From Pseudomonas entomophila L48 (lineage in GTDB: Bacteria; Pseudomonadota; Gammaproteobacteria; Pseudomonadales; Pseudomonadaceae), in the NCBI RefSeq assembly GCF_000026105.1, contig NC_008027.1, positions 4,918,501 through 4,982,500 of the forward strand: a stretch of 64,000 nucleotides of DNA, given 5' to 3'. Of this stretch, positions 39,220-49,422 are shown in pieces (positions within the stretch are counted from its first letter, which is position 1; every line of letters begins with the position of its first letter). A program made the translations under genes and the position numbers. The notes under the pieces are model-generated. The model was not told the origin of the DNA. It worked only from the letters and a program-made list of their open reading frames with translations, and did no database searches.

Positions 39220-40302
39220 TCAGTCCTTGGTATGTCCACTCAGAGCAGCTGCATCCAGTAACTCCAGTTTGCGCGCCTGGTGGAACTGATAGACCGTCAT
39301 GCCCAGCAGCTCCGCCGCCTTGGACTCTCCGACAATCCCCTCCCCCAGCGCACGGTAAACCAGTTGCTGGAACAACCGCGTGGTTTCCTGCCGGTATGCA
39401 GCCCCTGGCTCCTGCTTACGCCAACCCTGTTTGACGAACACCATGAACAGCCGCTCACGCACGGCGTGCGGGATGATCTCCAGGTCGCCAGCGCGATACA
39501 GGCAACCCTGCATGCTGAGGCCAAATTCCGCCTTGAGCAGATACAACTCGCGCACCTCCAGCATGTGGCGTTTGACGCCCAGATGCTGCCGCATGGCGCT
39601 GGCAGGCACCAGCAATGCCGAGGCAAAACGGTTACAGGCCTTTTCCTCGTCCAGCCCTTCGGCCAACCGACCGTGCATCAGCAAGTGACCTAGTTCGTGG
39701 GCCAAGGTGAACCGCTGCCGGTCACCCGGCCAGTCCGCCGACACCACGATGACCGGCTGCCCCGCCACGCTGGCCTGCAAGCCATCGAACTTCGCCTGTG
39801 CATCGACCTGGGTGATGATCACCAGAATCCCGTGCGTCTCCAGCACGTCGATCAAATCGGGAATCGGGCTCGCTCCCAGGCCCCACAGCTGCCGCACCTG
39901 GTCCGCCAGGTTGTCGACCGCCTGCAGCGAATCCAACTGCGCGGGCATCCCTGCCGGCGCGCTGAACGCCTGCACGGGATAATCCGGCCATAGATTGGTC
40001 AGTTCCTGCCAGCGCTCCGCCTGATCCAGCACATCGGCCTCGATGCGCTTGAGGATCGCCTTGGGTGTGCTGCAACGCTTGCGATATTCGACACCCGCCA
40101 GCTCGACCTTGGCAGGGCGGAAGAAATACTCGGCGCGCACCGACAGCGCCTTGCACAGACGCACGAGCACGCCGGAACTGGGCATGCTCTGGTCATGTTC
40201 ATACTTCTTGATCATGTTGGCGCTCACGCCCACCTGATCACCTAGCGCCTGCATCGACAGGCCAGCAGCAGCGCGGGCACGTTTGAGCCGCTCGCCGATC
40301 AT
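39220..40302 (-). CDS. XRE-family regulator with ImmA/IrrE peptidase domain
   Basis: The 360-residue protein starts MIGERLKRARAAAGLSMQALG, with an XRE helix-turn-helix to residue 55. The central domain is an ImmA/IrrE zinc metallopeptidase with HELGHLLMH and a downstream acidic residue in LDEEKACNRFAS. Such fusions are HigA-like or phage-repressor-cleaving regulators. GGGAG lies eight bases upstream of the ATG at 40302. Two nested palindromes in the promoter suggest autorepression. No partner toxin gene is adjacent. Confidence 0.88.
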   Translation of the reverse strand: MIGERLKRARAAAGLSMQALGDQVGVSANMIKKYEHDQSMPSSGVLVRLCKALSVRAEYFFRPAKVELAGVEYRKRCSTPKAILKRIEADVLDQAERWQELTNLWPDYPVQAFSAPAGMPAQLDSLQAVDNLADQVRQLWGLGASPIPDLIDVLETHGILVIITQVDAQAKFDGLQASVAGQPVIVVSADWPGDRQRFTLAHELGHLLMHGRLAEGLDEEKACNRFASALLVPASAMRQHLGVKRHMLEVRELYLLKAEFGLSMQGCLYRAGDLEIIPHAVRERLFMVFVKQGWRKQEPGAAYRQETTRLFQQLVYRALGEGIVGESKAAELLGMTVYQFHQARKLELLDAAALSGHTKD

Positions 40303-40317
40303 CGGCTGTCTCCCTCG

Positions 40318-40353
40318 GTTTACGATTCCATAAAATTTCAAAGAAATATAAAC
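40318..40353. promoter_or_regulatory. nested palindromes in the XRE-ImmA promoter
   Basis: GTTTA (40318-40322) and TAAAC (40349-40353) are inverted, and ATTTC-AAA-GAAAT (40335-40347) is a perfect inner palindrome. The AT-rich block lies 15-50 bases upstream of the XRE gene start, where an autoregulatory operator would be expected. Confidence 0.5.
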
Positions 40354-40506
40354 CCGATACACTTACCCGTCGAGCCATGGGCGACGACCGTCCCACCGCG
40401 TCCAGCTCGGCATCGCGCAACAGTCCCCTGATTCATATGCCTCCCCAAAGCCTGTATAAAGCGCCAACCACCTGCGCCCCCGACGTCTGCCAAAGGAAAC
40501 CCCTTC

Positions 40507-41236: not shown

Positions 41237-41280
41237 TAGGAGCGGCCTTGTGTCGCGAAAGGGCCGCAAAGCGGCCCCAA
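41237..41280. repeat. single REP element (GGCCTTGTGTCGCGAAAGGGC class)
   Basis: One copy of TGTAGGAGCGGCCTTGTGTC with its GGGCCGCAAAGCGGCCCC hairpin arm marks the left side of duplicated cassette copy 1. The same hairpin arm recurs at 43287-43304 beside copy 2. Confidence 0.85.
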
Positions 41281-41292
41281 TATCCCGCAGCA

Positions 41293-41523
41293 TCAATCCC
41301 CAGAAACACTCTCCTCCTTCATCGCCTCCAGCTTGCCAAACTGCTCACTGGCCAACCGGCTGATGATCCGGATCGCCTGGTGAATCCCCGCCGTATTGCG
41401 AAAGCTCAGCTGCGGGTTGTGCTCGCACTCCAGCACCTCGTCATGCTGCACCAGCGCCTCACCGAGCAGTTCGAGGGTCCAGACGTAGCTCTGGAGGGTA
41501 GACAGGCGTTCATGGTCAGGCAT
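41293..41523 (-). CDS. conserved small protein, cassette copy 1 (unknown function)
   Basis: The 76-residue protein (MPDHERLSTLQSYVWTLELL at the start) is nearly identical to the protein at 43318-43548. It is predicted all-alpha with SFRNTAGIHQAIRIISRLAS in the middle. Its start overlaps the stop of the upstream 46-residue ORF by 8 bases, so they form a coupled pair. I do not recognise the family. Confidence 0.75.
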   Translation of the reverse strand: MPDHERLSTLQSYVWTLELLGEALVQHDEVLECEHNPQLSFRNTAGIHQAIRIISRLASEQFGKLEAMKEESVSGD

Positions 41524-41656
41524 GGGGCACCTCCCGGTTGGTGCGGGTGGCGAGGGAGTGGCTGTCGATCGGGTAGAAGGTTGGGGATGGGGTGGCCGCG
41601 GGGGTTGGGCGGCGGAGAGCGGATGCGAGGATCCTGTACAGACGTGTGATGGTCAT
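41516..41656 (-). CDS. very small protein upstream of the 76-residue protein, copy 1
   Basis: The 46-residue ORF starts at an ATG with GGAG nine bases upstream and ends EVPHA. Its copy at 43541-43678 is conserved from ILASALRRPTPAATPSP to the end with only a few changes, so it is probably translated. It is Pro/Ala-rich in the middle and has no recognisable domain. Its start follows the structured leader at 41712-41785. Confidence 0.6.
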   Translation of the reverse strand: MTITRLYRILASALRRPTPAATPSPTFYPIDSHSLATRTNREVPHA

Positions 41657-41711
41657 GCATGAGACTCCAAGTTAGGTTGGAACCACCACGCACTGTCGCC
41701 AAACAATGGGT

Positions 41712-41785
41712 GGCAGCTGTACGCAGGTTGGCGAACCGGGAACTTGGAACCCGGCAGACCCGAAGGTCTCCCGCGCACAGCCGCC
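41712..41785 (-). ncRNA. candidate structured leader RNA, copy 1
   Basis: Read on the minus strand, GGCGGCTGT pairs with ACAGCTGCC, GCGCGGG with CCTGCGT, and two hairpins lie inside: AGACC-TTCG-GGTCT (a C-UUCG-G tetraloop) and a CCGGG/CCCGG hairpin. It precedes the small two-gene cassette. The same layout recurs at 43732-43806 and, degenerately, at 41999-42053. An ATG at the 5' edge opens a short frame in all copies, so a leader peptide cannot be excluded. Confidence 0.55.
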
Positions 41786-41806
41786 ATGGCACGAGGCTGC
41801 GGACGC

Positions 41807-42990: not shown

Positions 42991-43317
42991 TTTAGCGCCC
43001 TCAAACCGGTCTATGTTAGCCAGTTCGGCGAGCAATCAACAACCACCCAAACCAGCAACTTAAATATCGAATACGGTGACAATATTATCAAGCAAGCCTA
43101 ATACTTTATCGGAATAAAACATAATTCTTTTTGCTTTAACTCAACTCTCTTAAACAGGTCCAACAAAGCCCGAGGCAAATTTGGATTACACTGAATTTAA
43201 AAATTTGTAGCCAATGGGGACCAGCCCAGATGTTATTTCTCGGTGACGGTTCATCTGGAGCCCGATCAGGACGGGCCACACAATAGGGCCGCAAAGCGGC
43301 CCCGATGATGCGCGGTA
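42991..43317. other. AT-rich intergenic region
   Basis: No coding frame is supported. The segment 43040-43210 is markedly AT-rich and probably holds the promoter of the glycine-zipper gene; the right end (43287-43304) is a GGGCCGCAAAGCGGCCCC hairpin that marks cassette copy 2. Confidence 0.6.
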
Positions 43318-43548
43318 TCAGTCTCTAGATACACATTCTTCTGTCATCGCCTCCAGCTTGCCGAACTGCTCACTGGCCAACCGGCTGATGATCCGAATCG
43401 CCTGGTGAATCCCCGCCGTGTTGCGAAAGCTCAGCTGCGGGTTGTGCTCGCACTCCAGCACCTCGTCATGCTGCACCAGCGCCTCGCCGAGCAGTTCGAG
43501 GGTCCAGAGGTAGCTCTGGAGGGTGGACAGGCGTTCATGGTCAGGCAT
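43318..43548 (-). CDS. conserved small protein, cassette copy 2 (unknown function)
   Basis: The 76-residue protein differs from the copy at 41293-41523 at only a handful of positions, mainly near the C-terminus (TEECVSRD against KEESVSGD). The start overlaps the upstream small ORF by 8 bases. Conservation of both reading frames in the duplicates supports translation. Confidence 0.75.
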   Translation of the reverse strand: MPDHERLSTLQSYLWTLELLGEALVQHDEVLECEHNPQLSFRNTAGIHQAIRIISRLASEQFGKLEAMTEECVSRD

Positions 43549-43678
43549 GGGGCACCTCCCGGTTGGCGCGGGTGGCGAGGGAGTGGCTGTCGATTGGATA
43601 GAAGGTTGGGGATGGGGTGGCCGCGGGGGTTGGGCGGCGGAGAGCGGATGCGAGGATCCTCAGGATCTTGGTGGTCAT
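43541..43678 (-). CDS. very small protein upstream of the 76-residue protein, copy 2
   Basis: The 45-residue ORF begins MTTKILRILASALRRP with AAAGGA about nine bases upstream and ends EVPHA. It is the duplicate of the ORF at 41516-41656 and lacks one residue near the start. Role unknown. Confidence 0.6.
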   Translation of the reverse strand: MTTKILRILASALRRPTPAATPSPTFYPIDSHSLATRANREVPHA

Positions 43679-43731
43679 GCATGAGTTCCTTTCGTTGTGG
43701 AACTGCCACCGCTCGCGGCCAAGCAAGTTTA

Positions 43732-43806
43732 GGTGGCAGCAGTACGCGGGTTGGCCGACCGGGACGAAAGGGGCCCGGCACACCCGAAGGTGTCCCGCGC
43801 ACCACC
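43732..43806 (-). ncRNA. candidate structured leader RNA, copy 2
   Basis: On the minus strand GGTGG pairs with CCACC, GTGCGCGGG with CCCGCGTAC, and inside lie ACACC-TTCG-GGTGT (C-UUCG-G tetraloop) and a CCGGG/CCCGG hairpin. Compared with copy 1, the first hairpin changes AGACC/GGTCT to ACACC/GGTGT, a compensatory change that keeps the pairing. It lies directly upstream of the small-protein cassette. Confidence 0.55.
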
Positions 43807-43830
43807 GCCATGACGCGACATCGCGGGCAC

Positions 43831-44131: not shown

Positions 44132-44220
44132 TTCGCGACCAATCGCCGGCAAGCGCGGCTCCTACATGTATGGCGCGGACCTGGAGGCTCCATCTAATCT
44201 TACGGAACGGTGCCCGAGCA
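44132..44220. repeat. left inverted repeat of the AT-rich module
   Basis: About 85 bases here reappear inverted at 48654-48738 with a handful of mismatches and short gaps. The core includes a REP-like segment (GGCAAGCGCGGCTCCTACA) and a flank (ATGGCGCGGACCTGGA, then CTCCATCTAATC). With the leader at 43732-43870, this accounts for the gene-free stretch 43679-44295. Confidence 0.85.
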
Positions 44221-44295
44221 GGCTGGTCTCGTGCTGTGAAGACGGGCCCGATTGATGTATCCTTTAGAACCTTGCGCCATCTCAGGAAGGACCCT

Positions 44296-45594
44296 TTGAA
44301 CCATTCATTTTCCGGTATTTTGGTTCGCTATCTCCTTAAAAAAAAGGACAGCACGGCAGTGGTAGCTGAGGCCCAGAGCGCAACTGGGACAGCGGTTACT
44401 ACCGAAGTTGAGACTGCGGAATCAAAAGACGCGGGCCTTGGGCCACGACCGCTTCATTTACACGCAGCCCGAAAAGACGAGTTGCATGTCAACCTTTGGG
44501 AGACTGGTCAAGGGCACTTTTCGCCTTTTCTCGATATCGGCGTTATGGTCGGGATGCGTGCGGACGTTGAGGCCGTTGTAGTCGATCTTCCATGGTTGCT
44601 TGATGAAAAGCATGTCAGTGACCTTGGGTCGCGGCTGAATGGCGAGAAAAGCGTCGCGGCCATCTTCAACGAGGTTGTTCATTACGATGGTTTTGCGGAA
44701 GGAAATTTCGCAAATATTAGCTTTAGGAAAGATGGTCTCGATCACAAGCCATTTTCGCTTTTGAGGCTAAATTCGAACTCATTTAAAATTGAGCGAACCT
44801 ACTGGAGTGAGGGTGGAAGCTGCAGTCGGCTGGTGGTCAAGCTTCCCGAGATGAATCAAGATACGGTGAAGGAAGAAGATAGGCGAAAATCTGCATATAT
44901 TCGCTTTCGCATAAGAAATATTCCTCCATCAGTTTATTCGGTTAAGTTTAATCAAAAAGATCGGGCGCTTATTAGTTCGACGAATGAGACAAGAATCATT
45001 GATTTTCGTATTAATGTTTTGCGTGGTGTGCCTGAAGAGCTAATAAGCACAAATGTGCCGCTGTCGTTCCCGAAATTTGAAAGGATTCATTGCTTTCTTA
45101 CCACGTTGAGAGATGAAGAATGCGCGTCGGTAACCAATCATTATAAGGGATATCGGTCTCTGATGGATGAAGACGTCTGGAACGAATACATTCGCCTGGA
45201 TAGCTCCGTCGCTATATCCGACTCGAACAGTGTAAGGAATTATTTGGGGTATCAGTGGACCGCTTCGGCTGGGAAGGAGGCCGGTTCTTACGCAAAAGAT
45301 CTGGTGGTTTTAGGACGATTTACGAAGCTGCGTTCAAATTATTGGTCGATCACCAGATTTATTTTCTTGGTAATTCTCTTCGGGGCGGCCGGAAGTGGCA
45401 TATGGGACATTGGTACAGTTTGTGCGTTTGTCGATCCTCCGCCTAAGGATGTCGACTGTTCGCGCAAATACAGTCTCCTAACAACATACATTATCTGTGG
45501 TATTGTAATTATCGGCGCCATGCCATTTTTACGTTATCTTTGGAATTCTGTTCGGCCTAAGCTTGCCGCTTCGCTGGAAGAATTAACCCGCTAG
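44296..45594 (+). CDS. unknown protein with two C-terminal membrane helices
   Basis: I place the start at a TTG at 44296 with AGGAAGG just upstream (432 residues); the frame also runs 59 codons upstream through the inverted repeat and is unlikely to be coding there. Residues 1-340 look soluble and contain no motif I recognise. Two hydrophobic helices near the C-terminus (WSITRFIFLVILFGAAGSG and LLTTYIICGIVIIGAMPF) anchor it in the inner membrane. Codon use and GC are lower than the chromosome. It is convergent with, and overlaps by 38 bases, the GNAT gene of the neighbouring operon. Confidence 0.75.
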   Translation: MNHSFSGILVRYLLKKKDSTAVVAEAQSATGTAVTTEVETAESKDAGLGPRPLHLHAARKDELHVNLWETGQGHFSPFLDIGVMVGMRADVEAVVVDLPWLLDEKHVSDLGSRLNGEKSVAAIFNEVVHYDGFAEGNFANISFRKDGLDHKPFSLLRLNSNSFKIERTYWSEGGSCSRLVVKLPEMNQDTVKEEDRRKSAYIRFRIRNIPPSVYSVKFNQKDRALISSTNETRIIDFRINVLRGVPEELISTNVPLSFPKFERIHCFLTTLRDEECASVTNHYKGYRSLMDEDVWNEYIRLDSSVAISDSNSVRNYLGYQWTASAGKEAGSYAKDLVVLGRFTKLRSNYWSITRFIFLVILFGAAGSGIWDIGTVCAFVDPPPKDVDCSRKYSLLTTYIICGIVIIGAMPFLRYLWNSVRPKLAASLEELTR

Positions 45595-46159
45595 GGGAAA
45601 TTCTGGAGCTGATAGGCACCGGGATAAATTTAGGCTCAATCAGGCCATTGAAGCTAAGTTCGTCTTTCAATGGCCTGTAGTAGCTTTTGTATTCCTTCGC
45701 CAATTCAAAGCCATAGTGAGAAAAAAGCTTTTTGAAAGTGTCTCTTTGCTCTTCTGCTATGGAGAGAAGTGGCATATCGTTTTCTAGGTGTTCAAATGCT
45801 CGCTCAAATAGTCGAAGCCCGGTGCCAGAGCCTTGGAACTCGGGCATGACTCGCAAGCAACAAAGCTTCTGCTCTATCCCATCGTCCTTTATTATCGCCA
45901 GGCCCGAAAAGCGGCGCCGATAATATTCCACTAAGATGCTTCTTTCGCCGGACAGTATTCCCGGCAATACTTTGGACTCCAGCCACTGATCGAAAAGCGG
46001 ATAGTATCCGGACAGTCCGAATAGAGAAGTTCTTATAAAACCCCCTATTTGAGGAAAAGAATCCGGATTCGCAATTATGAAATCTCGATCAATAATCTTG
46101 GTCGAATTCAAAAGCAGGCGCAACTCCGAGTTAGCATTAAGTAATGACTGATTGGCCAT
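45557..46159 (-). CDS. GNAT-family N-acetyltransferase
   Basis: The 200-residue protein has the acetyl-CoA-binding motif A as CLRVMPEFQGSGTGLRLFER, with a following helix and the YGFELAKEYKSYY end segment. It is the last gene of the kinase/GNAT-ASCH/ASCH/GNAT operon and starts 1 base after the ASCH stop with GAGG six bases upstream. The substrate is unknown; stand-alone GNATs in such sets may be toxins, nucleobase modifiers or self-protection enzymes. Confidence 0.82.
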   Translation of the reverse strand: MANQSLLNANSELRLLLNSTKIIDRDFIIANPDSFPQIGGFIRTSLFGLSGYYPLFDQWLESKVLPGILSGERSILVEYYRRRFSGLAIIKDDGIEQKLCCLRVMPEFQGSGTGLRLFERAFEHLENDMPLLSIAEEQRDTFKKLFSHYGFELAKEYKSYYRPLKDELSFNGLIEPKFIPVPISSRISPSGLILPAKRQA

Positions 46160-46160
46160 G

Positions 46161-46577
46161 CTACACCTCTAGCTCTCGCTGCTTATACCTGGCGAATTCA
46201 TCACTCTTAATATATCTGAAAGACTGAGGGGGAGTAGTGCCAACCCCCAGCTCGGAAAGGCATTTGGGCTCTGCGTATTGTTTAACCTCTCCAACGGCAA
46301 TCGCCACAGCTTGTTCTTTGCCGTGGTAATACGAGTCGAAGAAATGCCTATCGATACCTGCGTGCCTCTTAGTGCGCTCCCATATTTTAGAGGGCGAGTC
46401 AATGAGGATTCGAAGAATTTCGAACTCGCCAACAAGTTTCCCAATAGGCTTGGTGGCGTAGATAATAACTGTGCTAACGCTACTATCGTTAAATCCGACT
46501 TTTCTGAATTCGAATTTCTTCTCGCCGCTTAAAATCTTTCGAGCATATTCAGGTTTAATCGATAATAATACTTTCAT
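46161..46577 (-). CDS. ASCH-domain protein
   Basis: The 138-residue protein begins MKVLLSIKPEYARKILSGEK with FEFRKVGF after it, the standard ASCH/PUA-like start, and has the later PIGKLVGEFEI strand. ASCH proteins bind RNA or nucleosides, and one bacterial branch hydrolyses N4-acetylcytidine. The start overlaps the preceding GNAT-fusion gene by 23 bases, so they are translationally coupled. Confidence 0.88.
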   Translation of the reverse strand: MKVLLSIKPEYARKILSGEKKFEFRKVGFNDSSVSTVIIYATKPIGKLVGEFEILRILIDSPSKIWERTKRHAGIDRHFFDSYYHGKEQAVAIAVGEVKQYAEPKCLSELGVGTTPPQSFRYIKSDEFARYKQRELEV

Positions 46578-47613
46578 TAATTTCGCCCTTCTCCGCGATC
46601 CACCTAATTTGAGTTTCGTTGAGAGCAATAAAATCCCATCTAGTCCGGGTGCTAATATTGCATTCCTCAATGAGGCGGCCGCGAATGATTCTTTTTTTCA
46701 GGGCGGCACTATATGTAAAGCGTATTATATACGATCTTTGCTTGTTAGTAAAATATTCTTTTAATTGCTCAGTGGTGAATATGCTGTAAGGCTTGGTGTA
46801 TTTAATGAATTGCGACTCAGTGGCGAAGGATTTTATCTGTCGAACTTCCTCTACTACTCCAATTGAAGAAACCACAGATCGATAAAACGCCTTTCCCTTT
46901 CCGTCGGATGTTCGATAAATGGCGACCGTATCGCCTGGTTTCATTACCTTGGTCCGTGAGATTCCTGAGATGTAAACCTTGTGAATGCTGTTGGTGTGTG
47001 ACACATCCTGAACAATGTCGTGGTTTTCGTTGTTTAAGATGGAGTCTGGGAGGAAAGAGGAGTGGTACTCCGGGTAGATGGCTAGCAAATAGTGTTTGCG
47101 GCCAGCAATACTGAAGTGGGGGAAGTCCTTGGTCACATCACTCGTTAGTGTTTTGAGCTCTCGGACATAAACGTTTTCAATGCCGTTTTTCCCAATTTTT
47201 CTTCCGTGTAAAACAAAGCCATAGCGCTCAATCAATGAAATTAAGCCGCTATGTTTTTCAAAAATGGTAACGTACATATAGTCGGCACGTTCAATCATAG
47301 CATGGTCGAAGGCTTTTTTTAAAAAACGCTCTCCAAGCTTGGTGCCATGTGCGTTTATTTTTAACGTCCCGACTTTTACGCTAAGTCCGCCTGGCAGTGG
47401 CGGCGAAATCTTGTCGTCGGGCTGATCCTCTCTTTTGAGATAGAGGAAACCATCAAGACGCTTGCGAGAGTTGAAGAAAACGTAGGCTTCGGCGCCGTCT
47501 TGGGCCTTTCTTTTGAACCACTCTTCAAATTCGGCGTAATCTGATTTCAACGAAGAGAAGAAGTCGTCAGAAATATCAATATTACTAAATTTTTCATATT
47601 TAAGGCTTTTCAA
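46555..47613 (-). CDS. GNAT acetyltransferase fused to ASCH/EVE-like (PUA-like) domain
   Basis: The 352-residue protein starts at a TTG with GGAG seven bases upstream. Residues 1-150 are a GNAT-like fold (VGTLKINAHGTKLGERFLKK, then YVTIFEKHSGLISLIERYGF). From about residue 165 a second domain includes the KPGDTVAIYRTSDGKGKAFYRSVV strand pair and SVVSSIGVVEEVRQI, resembling PUA-like EVE/ASCH folds that recognise modified bases. It lies 3 bases after the kinase gene. A role in modified-nucleotide handling is an inference. Confidence 0.82.
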   Translation of the reverse strand: MKSLKYEKFSNIDISDDFFSSLKSDYAEFEEWFKRKAQDGAEAYVFFNSRKRLDGFLYLKREDQPDDKISPPLPGGLSVKVGTLKINAHGTKLGERFLKKAFDHAMIERADYMYVTIFEKHSGLISLIERYGFVLHGRKIGKNGIENVYVRELKTLTSDVTKDFPHFSIAGRKHYLLAIYPEYHSSFLPDSILNNENHDIVQDVSHTNSIHKVYISGISRTKVMKPGDTVAIYRTSDGKGKAFYRSVVSSIGVVEEVRQIKSFATESQFIKYTKPYSIFTTEQLKEYFTNKQRSYIIRFTYSAALKKRIIRGRLIEECNISTRTRWDFIALNETQIRWIAEKGEINESIIID

Positions 47614-47616
47614 TCC

Positions 47617-48195
47617 CTAGCTCCTTGGACTGACGTTTTTTGGCCATGCTGATACTTCGTACAGAAAACCATCATCCATGTCAAGTGGCGTATCGCCATT
47701 ACGAATTACGTAAGGGATTTCTCTGGATAGACAGTATTTGATTGCCTGCTCCCTCTCTGCGTTCATTAGCTCAACTATTAGAGGGATTTTCCAGGTTGCC
47801 CTGTCTCGCAAGGTCAGTCGTTCGGCCACAATCTCAGGTGCCGACTGAACTAGGATGGTGCCGGTGATTTGCAGTTCGTCAAAAACCTTTGAGTCTATGC
47901 TTGTGGCTGATCCATCACTGCTGAGTAGTACGAAATGACCGTCCAGTATGAAAAATGGGGTGTGGCGTTTTACTGCGTTCACAGCCGAAATCAGAGCGTG
48001 TTGGTTTTCTCTAATTTGGCGTGCTCTCTTGTCCTCGCTCCATGACTGATCCTTACTCCATGCCTTTATGAGGGTGCTCGCGGAGTAGGTAGGTACCCCT
48101 AAAGCCTTTGATAGGCCAGAGCAGAAAGTCGTTTTGCCCGATCCATGAATTCCCGCAACGAATATCACATCCGCTTCCTTAGTCTGGAAAACCAT
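47617..48195 (-). CDS. P-loop kinase-like ATPase
   Basis: The 192-residue protein has a Walker A motif (FVAGIHGSGKTTFCSGLSKA), a likely Walker B/lid region (FFILDGHFVLL) and a region rich in Arg (ERLTLRDRATWK) typical of adenylate-kinase-like folds. It begins MVFQTKEADVIF. It is the first gene of the operon. It resembles small nucleotide or polynucleotide kinases more than AAA+ motors; the substrate is unknown. Confidence 0.8.
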   Translation of the reverse strand: MVFQTKEADVIFVAGIHGSGKTTFCSGLSKALGVPTYSASTLIKAWSKDQSWSEDKRARQIRENQHALISAVNAVKRHTPFFILDGHFVLLSSDGSATSIDSKVFDELQITGTILVQSAPEIVAERLTLRDRATWKIPLIVELMNAEREQAIKYCLSREIPYVIRNGDTPLDMDDGFLYEVSAWPKNVSPRS

Positions 48196-49422
48196 AATAT
48201 ATAGCCTTTGGTTCTAGCTATTTAGAAAATTAGGAATAACGGTGACTATTCATCTAATCGTATATTAATCGCTCAGCTTTTTGGATAGTTCACGATGTTG
48301 CTTGGGGTGAGCGCGCGCCTGCGACGCTTTGGGTCTAGGAGCACGAGGGGCGTGGCAGCAGATACGCCTTTTTGGACTTCGAGAGCTGATGGGAGGCTTA
48401 GGAGCCGAATTCGATGCGCGTCCACTCTAGCTAAAGGAGAGCGCTGATTGAACCCTATGCGCAGACCAGCAAGAAATCCGAGGCAGGTATCGCGGCACTC
48501 GCGGCTCAATTCATTGATTTGGCGATCACAGAAATCCGCAATACGGATGGATGAGCCTGATCGAAGCCGCGAGCGCGGCAGATGAAAAATTCCCAGGCCG
48601 AAGCGAAGGTGGCAGTTGATGCGCTTGATGGGCTGCTCCAGGCGGAGCTTAGTTGCTGGGCAGCGTTCCGATTAGATGGAGCTTCCAGGTCCGCGCCATA
48701 CCTGTAGGAGCCGCGCTTGCCGGGCGATTGGCCGCGAAGTAGGTAAACGAGACAGAGGCGGTCGAGCAAGTGGCCACGGGCTCCTGCACATCTAGCATGG
48801 AAAGAAAGCGTTTCTACGCAAAAGGGGGATCAAAAACCCGGATCAGCTGGCGGCTTTCATCGCCTCACTCATGGCAAAGGGCACCGAGATCTACCACGAC
48901 GCCAATCATCCTCTAGCGTCTAAAAAGCGCATCACACTGCTGCAAACGCTAGACGGGACGCTAACGCTAGAACCACGCGAGGGAGATCGCGTACTCGGAT
49001 TCCATGACTCGGTAGTGACCTGGACGCCCCAGCCCACCCCATGAGGAACCAAAGTCAGTGAAATCATGATCGATTGGGCAAAAGAAAAGGCGACCCTTGT
49101 GGGGTCGCCTTCGGATGTGAATGAGGCTGTAGTCGCAGCGATTCTTTAGTTTCCAGATCTACGACCCTTAAGGTCAGAACCCAGTCAAATCAACGGCCAT
49201 ATGGTGGGGCCTATCGACTGTCCCTACGTCAGTGAGTGCCAGCTTCACTGCTGCCGGATTCGGGGGGCCAATTACTGGCAAGCCATGCCCAAACATGCAC
49301 GGTTGCAGTCCTCGGTGCTCATCCTCGAAGATTTGCATGGATAGGTCAAACCACCAGTACTCGGTAATTTGTTTCAGCGGGCGACTCGCCTTGCCCTGGG
49401 CCTATCGACTTTTTCGAAGCAC
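48196..49422. other. gene-poor region with remnants at the right end of the island
   Basis: No full gene is supported. The right inverted repeat is at 48654-48738. Open but truncated frames are seen: 48438-48552 (ends FIDLAITEIRNTDG, AAAGGAG upstream), an ATG frame at 48551 of 22 codons, and 48840-49044 (contains IASLMAKGTEIYHDANHPLA, no convincing start; a Met at 48874 would give 56 residues). The 13-mer GGGCCTATCGACT occurs at about 49207 and again at about 49399. These look like decayed small genes and recombination scars. Confidence 0.55.
48654..48738. repeat. right inverted repeat of the AT-rich module
   Basis: This is the inverted partner of 44132-44220. Its complement contains CGGCAAGCGCGGCTCCTACA, then GTATGGCGCGGACCTGGA and GCTCCATCTAATC. 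Pairing differs by about six substitutions and a few single-base to 4-base gaps. Confidence 0.85.

Follow-up and report, generated by a model that had tools for sequence, protein, structure and literature searches.

A mobile GNAT-EVE/ASCH cassette with a convergent membrane-protein gene in Pseudomonas entomophila L48, a candidate toxin-antitoxin-type phage-defence module

We describe here a cassette of five genes, built around a GNAT-EVE fusion protein and an ASCH protein, in a 64,000-nucleotide stretch of the Pseudomonas entomophila L48 genome (NC_008027.1, positions 4,918,501 to 4,982,500; hereafter the window, whose own numbering is used for coordinates). Four of the genes are packed on the minus strand, and an open reading frame (ORF) check of the window finds them at the positions, and with the 3-base gap, 23-base overlap and 1-base gap, that had been given for them in an earlier note made from the sequence alone. 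The first gene of this operon encodes a P-loop nucleotide-kinase-like protein of 192 residues (47617–48195; AAA_17, E 1.7e-16, and AAA_18, E 1.7e-10), and is followed by the gene for the fusion, a PDC-M11A- and GevT-like predicted toxin of 352 residues with a TTG start (46555–47613; PDC-M11A, E 4.3e-136), by that for the ASCH protein, a PDC-M11B- and GevA-like predicted antitoxin or RNA-binding partner of 138 residues (46161–46577; PDC-M11B, E 5.8e-50), and by that for a second, single-domain GNAT of 200 residues (45557–46159; Acetyltransf_10, E 1.5e-5). The inventory in the note held for these four and overlooked the fifth, a convergent plus-strand gene (44296–45594) that overlaps the second GNAT gene by 38 nucleotides (nt) and encodes a 432-residue membrane protein, for which modelling gives a beta-rich domain and, at the C-terminal end, membrane helices; its TTG start was set so as to agree with the annotated length in NZ_CP087161.1. 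The GC content is 43–47% over the cassette genes, 50–57% in the adjoining few kb and 59–67% farther out, the fusion is matched once in the 5.89-Mb genome, and scans of the cassette for promoters and terminators gave no signal above shuffle level.

The core GNAT-EVE/ASCH pair is of an already known predicted kind, and is not new. Both defining proteins of PDC-M11, a candidate defence system in PADLOC, match their window counterparts over nearly the full length (residues 2–352 of the fusion), and the two genes are adjacent with a 23-nt overlap, whereas the membrane protein is matched by no PADLOC model up to E 0.5 and the kinase and second GNAT are matched only weakly (the latter by PDC-M11A at E 0.0013). 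In the AlphaFold model of the fusion (pLDDT 85.9, pTM 0.83) a GNAT fold is followed by an ASCH/EVE fold in both Foldseek and VIA comparisons; N-terminal acetyltransferases rank highest in VIA for the GNAT half, and the EVE half matches the Zymomonas mobilis ASCH protein (ZmASCH) in Foldseek. The absence of a fold from the VIA tables was not counted as evidence. Pseudomonas supplies the closest named relatives of the fusion, and a sequence search of the PDB returned two weak matches only (E 0.15 and 0.16). The N-terminal PIN RNase is absent, the protein beginning with its GNAT domain, and we therefore place it in the PIN-less subclass of (PIN)-GNAT-EVE. In the accessible part of their paper, Bell et al. 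2020 (PMC7641849) describe (PIN)-GNAT-EVE proteins with ASCH, often accompanied by AAA_17, as predicted toxin-antitoxin systems of which the PIN-less form is common in prophages, and state that no module of these systems has been experimentally characterised. The window resembles the operons described there in the order of the fusion, the ASCH partner and the AAA_17 neighbour, and differs in its stand-alone second GNAT and its membrane protein, which that part of the paper does not mention. No experimental study of this system was found among the papers listed for PDC-M11, GevT/GevA and ASCH with GNAT, covered mostly without subscription papers; one candidate, PMC12839542, was set aside because what is accessible of it concerns another GNAT context.

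The record of Escherichia phage PhiR47_2 (PV340567.1) labels homologues of the two proteins GevT toxin and GevA antitoxin. That pair is like the window's in its ASCH partner, in a GNAT-EVE protein 47% identical to the fusion and in the same 23-nt overlap, but it consists of two genes, and the other cassette parts were not found in that stretch. Phage lambda carries rexAB at the position right after cI, and in the lambda-like PhiR47_2 the GevT and GevA genes come immediately after cI, with kil, gam and bet following (L162, 5225–7411). The acetyl-CoA loop of GNATs usually reads Q/R-x-x-G-x-G/A, and type II GNAT toxins of the TacT/AtaT type combine this loop with a small ribbon-helix-helix antitoxin. 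The window fusion is unlike these toxins in that the first Gly of the loop is missing, and its partner is an ASCH rather than a ribbon-helix-helix protein. The second Gly is invariant in 153/153 distinct fusion sequences, with the first replaced by K (57), R (57) or L (39).

By sequence, the closest solved structure to the ASCH protein is that of ZmASCH (PDB 5gus_A, E 4.4e-12), which, according to the accessible part of its description, binds and cleaves single-stranded RNA (ssRNA) and has the cleft residues Tyr47, Lys53 and Ser128 (PMC5615036). Compared with ZmASCH (PDB 5gus, 5guq and 5y6b), the window protein conserves Tyr47 and Ser128 of the RNA cleft but does not retain Lys53 at the aligned place, and the cleft Tyr and the PQS motif are kept in 141/141 distinct sequences. 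Its Pfam and PADLOC matches include no DNA-binding domain. We regard it as a predicted antitoxin or RNA-binding partner that may or may not share the RNase activity of ZmASCH. In ac4C amidohydrolases of the YqfB type the catalytic residues are Lys, Thr and Glu.

The neighbourhoods of the fusion were surveyed in the best 80 of 175 genome loci and the best 80 of 142 viral loci. ASCH shares the locus with the fusion in 79/80 genome and 79/80 viral cases, of which 77 and 76 respectively have it within 100 nt in the same orientation, and such pairs are found across many bacterial groups and phages. The kinase is present at 24/80 genome and 19/80 viral loci, in varying positions, and the second GNAT at 6/80 and 2/80 (a third viral match, in L156, is the fusion itself and was excluded); the eight loci with the second GNAT also carry the convergent membrane-protein gene. 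Natural versions with two, three, four and five genes occur. These counts, in which most fusion loci lack the kinase and second GNAT, rule out that the writer, reader and eraser set completed by a kinase, as envisaged in the earlier note, is a fixed one. The note had also said that its reading would be refuted if homologues of its four proteins turned up singly and unassociated; in these surveys the parts co-occur, and this refutation fails.

The association is also seen from the side of the membrane protein, which belongs to no named family, whose best Pfam match is under the cut-off and which was compared, for a shared fold, with the N-terminal part of M1 aminopeptidase and the beta domain of an oligosaccharyltransferase subunit. 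A protein search gives 123 homologues and a profile search 125 among 8000 candidates scored, and a wider profile gives 0 matches among 10,863 reversed ORFs. Searched alone, the membrane protein leads to 16 distinct places in three phyla (eight viral contigs, four plasmids and four genomes), which include the window's own genome, a plasmid that carries nearly the window's cassette and a viral contig that ends inside ASCH. ASCH is present at 16/16 of these and GNAT-EVE at 14/15 evaluable; the kinase (10/15) and the stand-alone GNAT (10/16) are counted as lower bounds, since some viral contigs stop soon after ASCH. Gene order varies between the window, Paenibacillus (L168), Nitrosophilus (L169), Rhizobium (L167) and L194. 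On five viral contigs (L204–L208), with membrane proteins 49–72% identical to one another, there are only membrane protein, GNAT-EVE and ASCH in a row, and in L207, the one contig of these checked against Pfam, the trio is flanked by genes for a CI repressor and an integrase, and a CP76 gene lies farther out. At another Pseudomonas locus, L184, a kinase-ASCH pair faces a membrane protein-GNAT pair, with an integrase and an AbiD homologue nearby. Among 398 Pseudomonas genomes the membrane protein occurs in three, the fusion in eight (five GNAT-EVE and three long forms of 510–552 residues taken as PIN-type, two weak GNAT-only matches having been dropped) and both in two (hypergeometric P 0.001); of 398 genomes from the phylum, two have the membrane protein, and one of these is the query genome.

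The kinase has no PDB relative in a sequence search (E up to 0.01), and among 53 distinct aligned homologues conservation is 100% for the glycines and lysine of the GxxGxGK motif and for the DGH His, 98% for Asp85, 96% for Arg126 and 98% for Arg130. Profile-profile comparison matches the second GNAT to the family of the fusion (E 1.4e-7, probability 94%), and by this sequence evidence it is distantly related to the GNAT half of the fusion, with the first acetyl-CoA-loop Gly kept in 11/12 sequences. Relatives of this GNAT, 33–51% identical, also occur on four viral contigs (L212–L215), which range from 7 to 437 kb. These contigs make up four of the seven loci picked through the GNAT, and the other cassette parts were not found in the stretches examined; such stand-alone GNATs are possible counter-defence genes.

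The cassette (44190–48661) is 93.6% identical to one on the conjugative plasmid NZ_CP087161.1, and in the window an inverted repeat brackets it (left arm 44132–44215, plus strand; right arm 48658–48738, genome positions 4967158–4967238, minus strand), with 54-nt arms of 96% complementarity, the right arm being 89% identical to the left over 84 nt. The right arm is the only long genome match to the left arm among the matches listed, and at least 49 shorter partial matches lie elsewhere in the genome (40 of 254 candidates scored). The core of the left arm is one that we take to resemble a repetitive extragenic palindromic (REP) element, and because no similar long inverted repeat was reported in three related loci, the bracketing repeat may simply be two REP copies. 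Across 28 relatives, the right flank matches mainly around tRNA-Thr and its adjoining gene. The window cassette lies near a tRNA-Thr (CGT), and the related cassettes L184 and L185, from two other Pseudomonas genomes, have a tRNA-Thr (TGT) and a radC RNA motif in their vicinity. To the left, a 300-nt direct repeat with 92% identity (41260–41559 and 43285–43584) flanks a short AT-richer insert. C4 antisense RNA matches are found at 41706–41791 and 43729–43815 on the minus strand, and also in L185 and L082; with at least 30 copies over the cut-off in the genome (150 of 2217 candidates scored; 0 in 14 control genomes), this RNA was rejected as a linked part of the cassette. Farther left, a helix-turn-helix (HTH) protein with an M78/IrrE peptidase domain (39220–40362, minus strand) matches PADLOC RmrA (E 1.4e-52), and is possibly part of another defence system.

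From the gene content, the predicted folds and the recurrent co-occurrence of the parts, all shown here, we propose that the locus is a mobile, extended (PIN)-GNAT-EVE/ASCH system and most likely a toxin-antitoxin-type phage-defence module, a reading to which we give a probability of about 0.5; the cassette as a whole probably helps cells to resist phages. The possible defence role raised in the earlier note fits PDC-M11, the published prediction, the GevT/GevA record and the phage, plasmid and viral-contig contexts, and its reading is supported in part, while the nucleobase chemistry that it proposed is not supported. The EVE half would dock the GNAT half on RNA, most plausibly on tRNA or aminoacyl-tRNA, where the GNAT would acylate an amino group and so stop translation. 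ASCH would restrain the toxin by binding either to it or to that RNA; an added sensor, a tether or a second, membrane-acting effector are possible roles for the tail-anchored membrane protein; and the kinase and second GNAT may tune the toxin or its target.

Several observations weigh against this proposal. The first acetyl-CoA-loop Gly is missing from all 153 fusions, and use of acetyl-CoA by the family is therefore unsure. PaiA, a polyamine-type acetyltransferase, takes the top Foldseek rank for the GNAT half and is also a weak NCBIfam match to the fusion (E 0.007), so that the fusion GNAT may act on a small-molecule substrate. At the L184 locus the other four parts occur together in the absence of GNAT-EVE, and a fusion search of the whole of that genome (G251) found none. 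Seen from the fusion, the association with the membrane protein is weak: with the wider profile, the membrane protein is found in only 8/160 GNAT-EVE loci. In Pseudomonas its association with the fusion is modest once the query genome is left out (P = 0.035), and L004 and L006 carry split genes. No paper on GevT/GevA was found among those listed, the names doubling as common surnames and acronyms.

Four other readings strike us as unlikely. In the first, which is also the idea of the earlier note, the GNAT half would acetylate a DNA or RNA base, a mark for EVE and ASCH to read or take off. Both EVE and ASCH are folds that bind modified bases, L169 has an N-6 DNA methylase gene at a distance of a few kb, and acetylation of bases is a proposal of Iyer et al. 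2013, credited in the accessible part of Bell et al. (PMC7641849). However, the GNAT half is most like protein and polyamine acetyltransferases, and it is this acetylation chemistry that suffers from the absent loop Gly and from the ssRNA cleavage by the closest solved ASCH; the kinase and second GNAT, moreover, are missing from most fusion loci. It is similarly improbable that two systems share the island, a GevT/GevA-like pair and a separate kinase, ASCH, GNAT and membrane-protein system of the L184 kind. The arrangement in L184 and the absence of the extra genes beside most GNAT-EVE/ASCH pairs would suit such a division, but the window's cassette has a single ASCH gene, the 14 other evaluable membrane-protein places all have GNAT-EVE, and the five viral contigs join the membrane protein to GNAT-EVE and ASCH with neither kinase nor second GNAT in the stretches examined. 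We also hold doubtful, at much the same level, that the five parts form an immune system of their own, linked to the membrane, in which the tail-anchored beta-domain protein, of a family that travels with GNAT-EVE/ASCH, would sense infection or kill through the membrane, the kinase and stand-alone GNAT would form a regulatory pair, and the stand-alone GNATs of large phages would be counter-defence. Least probable is an addiction module that maintains a plasmid or prophage and plays no direct part in phage defence. Here the homologues on conjugative plasmids, phages and viral contigs and the toxin-antitoxin naming in the PhiR47_2 record have to be set against the five-part complexity, the AbiD homologue near the L184 cassette and the post-cI position in PhiR47_2, which suggest exclusion.

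What the association described here adds to GNAT-EVE/ASCH is a defined partner in the membrane, together with a second GNAT whose acetyl-CoA loop is of the usual kind. With the membrane partner, the second GNAT and the compact natural versions to hand, the acylation target of GNAT-EVE and its trigger therefore become directly testable.

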